Shown in pieces: positions 16,018-17,883 of a stretch of DNA of 44,849 nucleotides. The position numbers were made by a program, and so were the translations under genes. Below the pieces are notes generated by a model. The model did not search any database. It had not been told where the DNA came from and saw nothing but the letters and a program-made list of their open reading frames with translations. Position 1 is the stretch's first letter; every line of letters begins with the position of its first letter. This DNA comes from a virus: positions 1 through 44,849 of the IMG/VR virus record IMGVR_UViG_3300045996_000505. One strand, written 5' to 3'.

Positions 16018-16107
16018 GCTCGGCGCTCCCTCCCTGTCCCCACAGGTGCCGAGCCGGCGCGCGACACGCACTCGTCCCAACGGACGGTCGCGCGCCACCT
16101 TTTCTCT
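16018..16107 (+). terminator. Two strong hairpins, the second terminator-like
   Basis: The first stem pairs GCTCGGC (16018-16024) with GCCGAGC (16048-16054) and holds an inner stem CCTGT with ACAGG. The second pairs GGCGCGCGAC (16056-16065) with GTCGCGCGCC (16087-16096), ten perfect pairs, with an inner CGTCC/GGACG hairpin. It is followed by ACCTTTTCTC. It could end rightward transcription that runs past the Cro-like gene. The T-run is short, so termination is not certain. Confidence 0.55.
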
Positions 16108-16404
16108 CGGCGGCGTGGAGAGTAGACACGCTGATACATCCTCAAGGCTCGATTGGGTTGGAAGCGCAGCGCTGGCAATACCAGCGTCGGAGACGGCCAT
16201 TGCGCTGAAAAGCGGATGGACCCTGGATGCGTGCGGTGCAAGTCCGCAATCGCGCAAGCGATCTCAAGGCTCGGACCCAGGATGTAACGGAGCCATAGCT
16301 GGCGTAACGCCCAGCCCGAGAGAAGCTTCTCCCTGCCGGCATTCCTCCCGCCGGTTGACTGCGCGGGCCGTCCCAACATGGCAACGGCCCGCGCCTCTTT
16401 CTCC
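16107..16404 (+). ncRNA. Candidate structured noncoding RNA or leader RNA
   Basis: No credible protein is encoded in the 629-bp gap 15797-16425. This part folds repeatedly: CGCTGG/CCAGCG around CAATA (16170-16186); TGCGG/CCGCA around TGCAAGT (16232-16248); ATCGC/GCGAT closed by a GCAA tetraloop (16249-16262); GCTGG/CCAGC (16298-16315); CCGGC/GCCGG (16336-16354); then the 16361-16394 stem. An 11-base direct repeat CTCAAGGCTCG occurs at 16141 and 16263. GGTGCAAGTCCGC slightly resembles cobalamin riboswitch cores, but no B12 box is evident. It may be a trans-acting RNA or an antitermination leader. Confidence 0.45.
16361..16404 (+). terminator. Terminator-like hairpin before the rightward early genes
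   Basis: GCGCGGGCCGT (16361-16371) pairs perfectly with ACGGCCCGCGC (16384-16394), an 11-base GC-rich stem, followed by CTCTTTCTCC. It stands 31 bases before the next start codon. It could terminate the candidate RNA, or act as an attenuator that must be read through to express the replication operon. Confidence 0.6.
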
Positions 16405-16425: not shown

Positions 16426-16584
16426 ATGAAATTCGCACTGTGCGTCGCCGGCGGTTTAGTGCCGGCCGCGTTCACGTATCTCACTGGATACGGGGTACTT
16501 GAGTGGCAGTTTTGGGCCATATGCATGCCGTTCGCGATTGCCTTCGGCGGAGCTTGTGGATTGATCGCCGCTCGCTGCGCGTAG
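16426..16584 (+). CDS. Small two-helix membrane protein
   Basis: A 52-residue ORF with GGAGAG seven bases before ATG 16426. Two hydrophobic segments (about 2-18 and 27-50, around FWAICMPFAIAFGGACGLIAA) are joined by GYGVLEWQ. It is the first gene after the structured RNA region. No family is recognised. Confidence 0.65.
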   Translation: MKFALCVAGGLVPAAFTYLTGYGVLEWQFWAICMPFAIAFGGACGLIAARCA

Positions 16585-16752
16585 CCGCCAGCCGCACAAA
16601 CTAATCACTTCCGCGCTTGGTGCTCTGCAAAGCCCCTCTGCGCGCAACATAACCAACCGCCACTGTGCTGGCGGGATTGAAGTAGGAATCTCTAATCGCT
16701 GCCTCTGTGCCGTCCTTTCCATACCAGGAAAATGACATAGGGGTTTTCGCAG

Positions 16753-17157
16753 ATGTCCGAATTTCGAGAGCACATTTCCGAAAAATCGTCGGAGCCGTAC
16801 AGGATGAGTGCCGTAGCAGAAGCCCAAACACTGGTTCGCGTAATCGCTGAACCGCGCGCTGTTGGCGACAGCGTGAAGACCTCGATTAACAAAGCAGCCC
16901 GTCGCCTCGGGTTCTCGTTCTCTCGTGCCAAGGACATTTGGTATGGCGATGCCCGCCGGATCGACGCCGCCGAAATCGACAAACTCCGTGAACTCGCCGG
17001 ACAACGCCGGCTCCACTTGGCTCGCAAGAGCGTACTGGAGCTTCGTCACGCATTGGCCGGTTCGGATGAGGGAAGCCATCGCGAAGCTGTTGCTTCGCTC
17101 GATCACGCGCTTCGCCAGTTGGGTGCCGAAATACGCACCATGGATGACCAGAGGTGA
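16753..17157 (+). CDS. Putative DNA-binding regulator
   Basis: A 134-residue protein; ATG 16804 is an alternative start. The segment SVKTSINKAARRLGFSFSRA, then KDIWYGDARRIDAAEIDKL, looks like a helix-turn-helix and recurs in alphaproteobacterial phages and rhizobial genomes. The C-terminal third is helical. The 168-bp gap upstream (16585-16752) holds no feature I can name. It opens a row of DNA-binding proteins, so regulation of the replication genes or of the host is likely. Confidence 0.75.
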   Translation: MSEFREHISEKSSEPYRMSAVAEAQTLVRVIAEPRAVGDSVKTSINKAARRLGFSFSRAKDIWYGDARRIDAAEIDKLRELAGQRRLHLARKSVLELRHALAGSDEGSHREAVASLDHALRQLGAEIRTMDDQR

Positions 17158-17160
17158 GAA

Positions 17161-17475
17161 ATGATGACACGCAAATCGCTTGCTGACGCCATCGACGGCT
17201 ACGAAGCCGAGATCAAGCTTCTGCAGGACGGCAAAGCAGAAACATACGCCGCCTATCGCGAGCAGATGAAATCCACGGGCGCCGGCAAGGACGCTGTGAG
17301 GCTCGAAATGCTGGCGATCAAGACGGCTATCCGTCAGCGCCGCGCGCTCGCTGAGGACGCCAGCGGAGTGGAGGAGCGCGACAGCCTAACCGACGAAATC
17401 CTCACGGAAATTCGTTCTGGCACGCATCCTGCAATCGCGCGTGCGGGTGCGCGAGAAGATCACGCGGCAGCGTAG
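17161..17475 (+). CDS. DUF2312 (GapR-like) nucleoid-associated protein
   Basis: A 104-residue protein with the DUF2312 pattern LADAIDGYEAEIKLLQDGKA, then a charged helix and LEMLAIKTAIRQRR, similar to the layout of GapR. In Caulobacter, GapR is an AT-rich and overtwisted DNA binder that supports replication and cell-cycle control. The phage version may bind phage or host DNA ahead of forks (inference). AGGTGAGAA precedes the ATG. It sits between two other DNA-binding genes. Confidence 0.85.
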   Translation: MMTRKSLADAIDGYEAEIKLLQDGKAETYAAYREQMKSTGAGKDAVRLEMLAIKTAIRQRRALAEDASGVEERDSLTDEILTEIRSGTHPAIARAGAREDHAAA

Positions 17476-17484
17476 GGGCTCGTC

Positions 17485-17883
17485 ATGAAAGGCCGATCCG
17501 TGCTTTGGACCGACGAGGAAACCCAAACGGCCGTGCGCCTTAAGGCTGACGGCATGGGGGTGCCGCAGATAGCTCGGGTGCTTGGCCGGACTGCGGCGGC
17601 ATTACATTGCCGATTCAAGTTCATCGCGCTGTCACCGGAGCAGAAGGCTGCGCGGTACAAGAAATACCACGTGAAGGCGAACGAGCGCCGCCGGATGGAG
17701 CCAAAGCACAGCTCAGGTTTGCACCTGCGCTACATCCACCGACCATCGGCTGAGCAGGTCGCCGAGCGCGACGAACGATTCAGCAAGCCGCGCAGCTTTG
17801 CCCAACTGTATCTCGGTGATCCGTTGCCCGGTCAATCAGCGTTGGACAAGCGTAGCATGGAGTCGCGTCATGGGACCAATTGA
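17485..17883 (+). CDS. Myb/SANT or GcrA-like HTH protein
   Basis: A 132-residue protein. Its N-terminal [20 protein letters not shown], then [20 protein letters not shown], has the W-T-D-E start and QIA-x-x-L-GRT recognition helix shared by Myb/SANT-like phage proteins and the N-terminus of GcrA, an alphaproteobacterial cell-cycle activator. The C-terminal 80 residues are basic then variable and do not match GcrA. GcrA-like is one reading; a general Myb-like HTH is equally possible. Confidence 0.72.

Follow-up and report, generated by a model that had tools for sequence, protein, structure and literature searches.

The window, a viral DNA record of 44,849 bases, contains a conserved RNA element of 225 nt on its plus strand (16102–16326). 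Our best reading is that this element belongs to an undescribed, phage-specific RNA family lying outside the Rfam library. Members share a common layout: a closing stem P1, a hairpin P2 (CGGCGTGGAAAGCAGACACGC), a variable arm, and a hairpin P10 (GCCGGAGTAGCGCCCGGC) that abuts P1. Computation shows that these parts form a closed four-way junction of P1, P2, the hypervariable arm and P10, with P10 stacked on P1. A conserved RNA that occurs in many unrelated phages, is nearly absent from sampled bacterial genomes and has no Rfam entry is a sign of a so far unstudied function in phages, and the combination of a fixed core with a fast-changing, exchangeable arm is the product expected of an arms race. 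The sequence pattern and covariance model presented here make the family searchable, also in those phages of Pseudomonas and Ochrobactrum that are available in culture.

The RNA of the window and its first relative

Among the genes of the window are those for an integrase, a major head protein and an SU10-type portal, together with a GcrA-like gene; on their evidence, the source is probably a temperate phage with an alphaproteobacterial host. The original prediction had marked a segment of about 390 bp (16018–16404) as an RNA candidate. The hairpins it listed are real: stems of 10 pairs (16056–16096) and 11 pairs (16361–16394) are present, the seven-base-loop stem (16232–16248) is followed by an abutting tetraloop hairpin (16249–16262), and the direct repeat CTCAAGGCTCG is found at 16142 and 16263. 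The conserved unit is smaller than the proposed segment, being confined to the 225 nt at 16102–16326. Neither of the two long GC stems, which flank it on the outside, has a counterpart in the relative described below. They had also been described as terminator-like and bounding the segment, a weak claim, as neither outer stem is called by a scan for a stem plus T-run. The plus strand of 16018–16404 folds better than 100 of 100 dinucleotide-preserving shuffles (z −3.44), as anticipated for an RNA, while folding of the minus strand is not unusual compared to shuffles (z −0.71). No Rfam 15 family reaches its gathering score in the window, in agreement with the original prediction, which recognised no known RNA family, and a permissive Rfam scan of the region returned just two matches, both weak and implausible.

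Several features were noted around the element. The sequence CGTCCCAAC lies in or beside the loop of both flanking GC stems, and the RNA of contig G423 (see below) is flanked by other, different GC-rich hairpins. On the 3' side of the window RNA, a 52-codon open reading frame (16426–16584) encodes a small, probably membrane-spanning protein, for which a search detected no relatives; a small membrane-protein-like frame also lies beside the RNA of G423, on the opposite strand. The element itself was considered as a coding sequence and rejected: the single frame that is open in both the window and its first relative yields low-complexity, poorly conserved peptides.

The first relative was found by scanning IMG/VR with a 17-base pattern taken from the seven-base-loop stem, which returned 11 stretches. 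One of these, L005, is truly related: it lies on contig G001 (44,416 bases) and is 70% identical to the window over a length of 235 bases (E 7e-22). The similarity starts and stops with the closing stem and thereby defines the ends of the element (window 16102–16326, G001 16878–17105). G001 remained the sole true relative obtained with the first, arm-based patterns; the matches L008–L020 and L021–L031 are due to chance. Aligning the two sequences revealed a structure of ten helices and 57 pairs, all 57 of which are kept, with 15 compensatory double changes. Since the structure was drawn by hand from both sequences, the percentage of paired positions is favoured by construction, and the number of compensatory changes carries more weight. 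When the partners were slid by 1–3 columns as a control, 0 or 1 compensatory pairs were found instead of 15. The retention of pairs through compensatory changes supports the candidate RNA.

The phage carrying G001 is related to that of the window (66–67% identity in the head protein and 62% in the portal), and the position of its RNA relative to the gene modules differs from that in the window. The G001 RNA lies in frame within an open 332-codon frame (L033 7532–8530, corresponding to G001 16531–17529) that combines a Lar-like N-terminus with a DUF551-like C-terminus and may represent two genes or one interrupted gene.

In the window, P1 is formed by nine pairs between TTCTCTCGG (16102–16110) and CCGAGAGAA (16316–16324), two of which are compensatory with respect to G001. 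The 5' strand of P1 is followed by the P2 hairpin CGGCGTGGAGAGTAGACACGCTG (16111–16133), and its 3' strand directly abuts the P10 hairpin GCTGGCGTAACGCCCAGC (16298–16315). The intervening arm (16134–16297) comprises helices P3–P9 and is the window version of a region that is mostly unrelated in other members. P3 pairs GGCTC (16146–16150) with 16290–16294, and P4 pairs 16154–16159 with 16274–16279, including three compensatory pairs. The P6 hairpin (16198–16218) contains five compensatory pairs, and the hairpins P5 (16170–16186) and P9 (16249–16262) are paired in both the window and G001. P7, formed by 16221–16225 and 16265–16269, never varies and so gains no support from covariation. The same holds for P8 (16232–16248), a T-arm-like hairpin of five pairs and a seven-base loop (TGCGG-TGCAAGT-CCGCA) that is identical in G001.

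Size and distribution of the family

A covariance model, R1, which matches the window at 16101–16326, was applied to 50 contigs that encode related head proteins. It identified one more phage, represented by two nearly identical contigs, G422 and G423 (E about 2e-19), the RNA of which keeps P1, P2, P3 and P10 around a different interior. A strict pattern for the P2 hairpin (GGCGNGGARAGYAGACNCGC), which the window matches at 16112–16131, is found in at least 120 viral stretches; family sizes given here are lower bounds. When R1 was run on 78 viral loci, 76 gave a full-length match at E ≤0.1, with a partial match in L134 and none in L152. Simple rules locate P10 and P1 at 98 of 126 P2 sites across all loci, so that the family has at least 98 complete members. 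These are spread over 97 loci, almost all of them on viral contigs. Among the viral loci, P10 together with a P1 of at least seven pairs lies 3' of 73% of P2 sites, compared with 0.4% of control GGCG sites. The window RNA shares these family hallmarks, with a covarying P1 and, at 16298–16315, a hairpin that has the loop NGTARCGN and directly abuts P1. Several contigs carry a second copy of the RNA. Annotated carriers are the Pseudomonas phages PotUPM1, Orimi01 (with Orisa01–03) and Persinger, and the Ochrobactrum phage POI1126.

Bacterial genomes yielded little. Among 398 Pseudomonadota genomes, none has the strict P2 pattern; among 398 genomes from the order to which G002 belongs, one does, and its site adjoins genes with phage-family matches. 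No family match was found in the E. coli genomes, and a single, weak plasmid match was not a family member. The weak genome matches L039, L040, L041, L248 and L249 look spurious: L039 lies on the strand opposite a predicted enzyme gene, L248 is a perfect GC inverted repeat, and L040, L041 and L249 are devoid of P2 and P10. R1 left 16 of 50 contigs bearing the P2 pattern unmatched in the genome search, and its negatives in genomes are weak because it misses known members. The absence from bacteria is also incomplete, because one bacterial genome contains a variant member (L247 1501–1600). This variant has the P10 sequence, P1 and a variant P2 with the loop TGAAGCGGAA, and is followed by three tRNA genes; it has no phage-family matches nearby.

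Searching open-access literature text for the core sequences produced no hit, and the family may have been described earlier elsewhere. The conserved structure, the compensatory changes, the large phage-specific family and the lack of an Rfam match bear out the original prediction of a candidate new phage RNA.

Core, variable arm and genomic settings

Across the family, P2 and P10 are near-invariant, and P1 varies in sequence while covarying strongly. P1 is paired in 96–100% of cells among 95 unique members; membership required at least four P1 pairs, so that positions 1–4 are biased by selection and positions 5–7 much less. At positions 5–7, all four Watson–Crick types occur, and 96–100% of members are paired compared with 38–40% when partners are shuffled. 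The pairs of P10 and the variable pair of P2 covary as well. A C-G combination between a base in the P2 loop and a base in the P10 loop is seen in 93 members, and a U-A combination in two, the window being one of these. This rare double change supports pairing of the two loops; the putative contact rests on two double changes, in a P2 loop that the search pattern had largely fixed. The pair types include 13 G-U and no A-C pairs, which identifies the plus strand as the RNA. Unconstrained folding of two short members, L190 (104 nt) and L168, yields the four-way junction.

The arm ranges from 44 to 178 nt and has almost no sequence in common across members. On average, the folding of arms is just marginally better than that of shuffled sequences (mean z −0.37). 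The loci L170 (6609–6825) and L183 (3035–3157) have flanks that are 96–97% identical and arms that are unrelated, which suggests recombination of the arm. A T-arm motif is present in 8 of 95 arms, P8 of the window among them, compared with 0.17 expected from shuffles. One subgroup of arms (L250, L173, L174, L175, L146, L208 and L241) shares modules such as CACCTGAA..AACCGGAG and GAGAGAAAGGC..GTCGGCCT..GAGG. The arm of L232 resembles a tRNA, with a D-arm, a T-arm and a shortened anticodon arm.

The genomic settings vary between the immunity region, the 3' side of the integrase and the structural region. The window RNA lies just upstream of early genes, and those of Orimi01, PotUPM1 and G423 are likewise close to an early gene or to the immunity region. 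In Persinger, the RNA is 3' of the integrase and the genes that come next lie on the opposite strand; in POI1126 it is located among structural genes, on the opposite strand. Two members are embedded in dense tRNA arrays and have a related arm in common: that of L147 directly follows tRNA-Asn, and that of L167 ends two bases before tRNA-Val. L186 is another phage with the RNA and nearby tRNA genes; most members are found outside tRNA arrays. All 16 T-arm sequences located up to 500 nt from a member share the strand of the RNA. The ends of members are enriched neither for promoters nor for terminators. Models in which the RNA has its own promoter or its own terminator were rejected on this basis, and the lack of enrichment fits processing out of longer transcripts.

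Likely function and relation to known RNAs

The most likely function is probably that of a trans-acting tRNA mimic, a reading based on the tRNA-like order of parts, the tRNA neighbourhood and the T-arm motifs. P1 would correspond to the acceptor stem, P10 to the T-arm and P2 to the D-arm, with the variable arm standing in for the anticodon domain. A longer phage transcript would be cut to yield the stable mimic, which might then act in trans by binding or occupying a tRNA-handling protein, either from the host or from an anti-phage defence; the variable arm would set the specificity. We give the full account, a phage-specific structured-RNA family with a tRNA-like layout that acts in trans as a tRNA mimic, about an even chance of being correct, the mimic step being drawn from layout and neighbourhood. 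That phages swap arms on a fixed tRNA-like core to defeat different tRNA-targeting host defences is a tentative extension, and an unlikely one as it stands.

The tRNA resemblance could also be superficial and the RNA have another role in trans, as a sponge for a non-tRNA protein, an RNA antitoxin or a base-pairing regulator. We consider this rather unlikely but credible: the conserved core and the lack of tRNA neighbours in most members would suit such a role, whereas the excess of T-arm motifs over expectation, in the arms and nearby, speaks against it. The original prediction had proposed put-like antitermination, and a cis-acting leader of this kind, or an attenuator, controlling the downstream early operon would agree with the location of the window RNA and with those of Orimi01, PotUPM1 and G423. 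It appears improbable in view of the relatives outside early regions, namely 3' of the integrase in Persinger, among structural genes in POI1126 and between tRNA genes in L147 and L167, and of ends that lack promoter and terminator enrichment.

A mobile RNA-encoding element or intron-like insertion, moving between loci and being removed or tolerated there, would account for RNA locations that differ even among related phages, for the two copies on some contigs and for the G001 copy within an open frame. That frame may be two genes, however, because its halves match different proteins, and a search for an uninterrupted homologue found none. No group I or group II intron match covers the element, and the variable P1 sequences show no fixed target site, leaving mobility a quite improbable explanation. 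The exchange of arms between the near-identical flanks of L170 and L183 could also reflect an element acting as DNA, such as a recombination or packaging hairpin. The occurrence of G-U pairs without A-C pairs fits an RNA made from one strand instead, as do the shared strand of the RNA and all 16 neighbouring T-arms and the unremarkable folding of the minus strand, making a DNA-level element highly improbable. 

Among known RNAs, YrlA (RF02553) is nearest in concept. Like the family described here, it is modular, its ends pair into a stem and it has tRNA-like arms. Phages are said to carry YrlA (PMC7765460), and one has been reported in a Mycolicibacterium prophage (PMC8190616). It differs in its basal stem (GCGAAUGC/UUGUCGC), in the permuted order of T-arm, acceptor and D-arm, and in being devoid of the P2 and P10 sequences. 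RF02553 has no match in the window at E 10 and none in the loci of 14 relatives at E 1. R1 in turn scores at most 9 bits on true YrlA loci, from which the family differs in both order and sequences, and YrlA was rejected as an identity.

GOLLD and ROOL are likewise structured noncoding RNAs linked to phages; they are several times larger than the RNAs described here. Their Rfam models match neither the window nor the loci of relatives. A title cited in PMC9569102 places GOLLD in tRNA arrays as well. The small stable RNAs rnaC and rnaD of T4 lie in a phage tRNA cluster, like the members of L147 and L167, but the T4 region is unmatched by R1. The put RNAs of phage HK022 are short, two-hairpin, cis-acting leaders and share with the family the presence of phage RNA hairpins in early regions. 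The relatives found here are not tied to early operons as their leaders, and the hypervariable arm is unlike known put RNAs. An intron was rejected, as no Rfam model for group I or group II introns matches over the element in the window or in the loci of relatives; the T-arm-like loop GGTGCAAGTCC also occurs in what we take to be cyanobacterial group II intron sequence (L022 and L030).

ARAGORN makes no tRNA or tmRNA call in the window, and unlike a tRNA the element has no CCA end, carries a non-standard loop on P10 where a T-loop would be expected, and has the variable arm in the position of the anticodon stem. In common with tRNA and tmRNA, it has a closing stem, a D-arm-like hairpin, a five-pair hairpin abutting the closing stem and loops that would contact each other.
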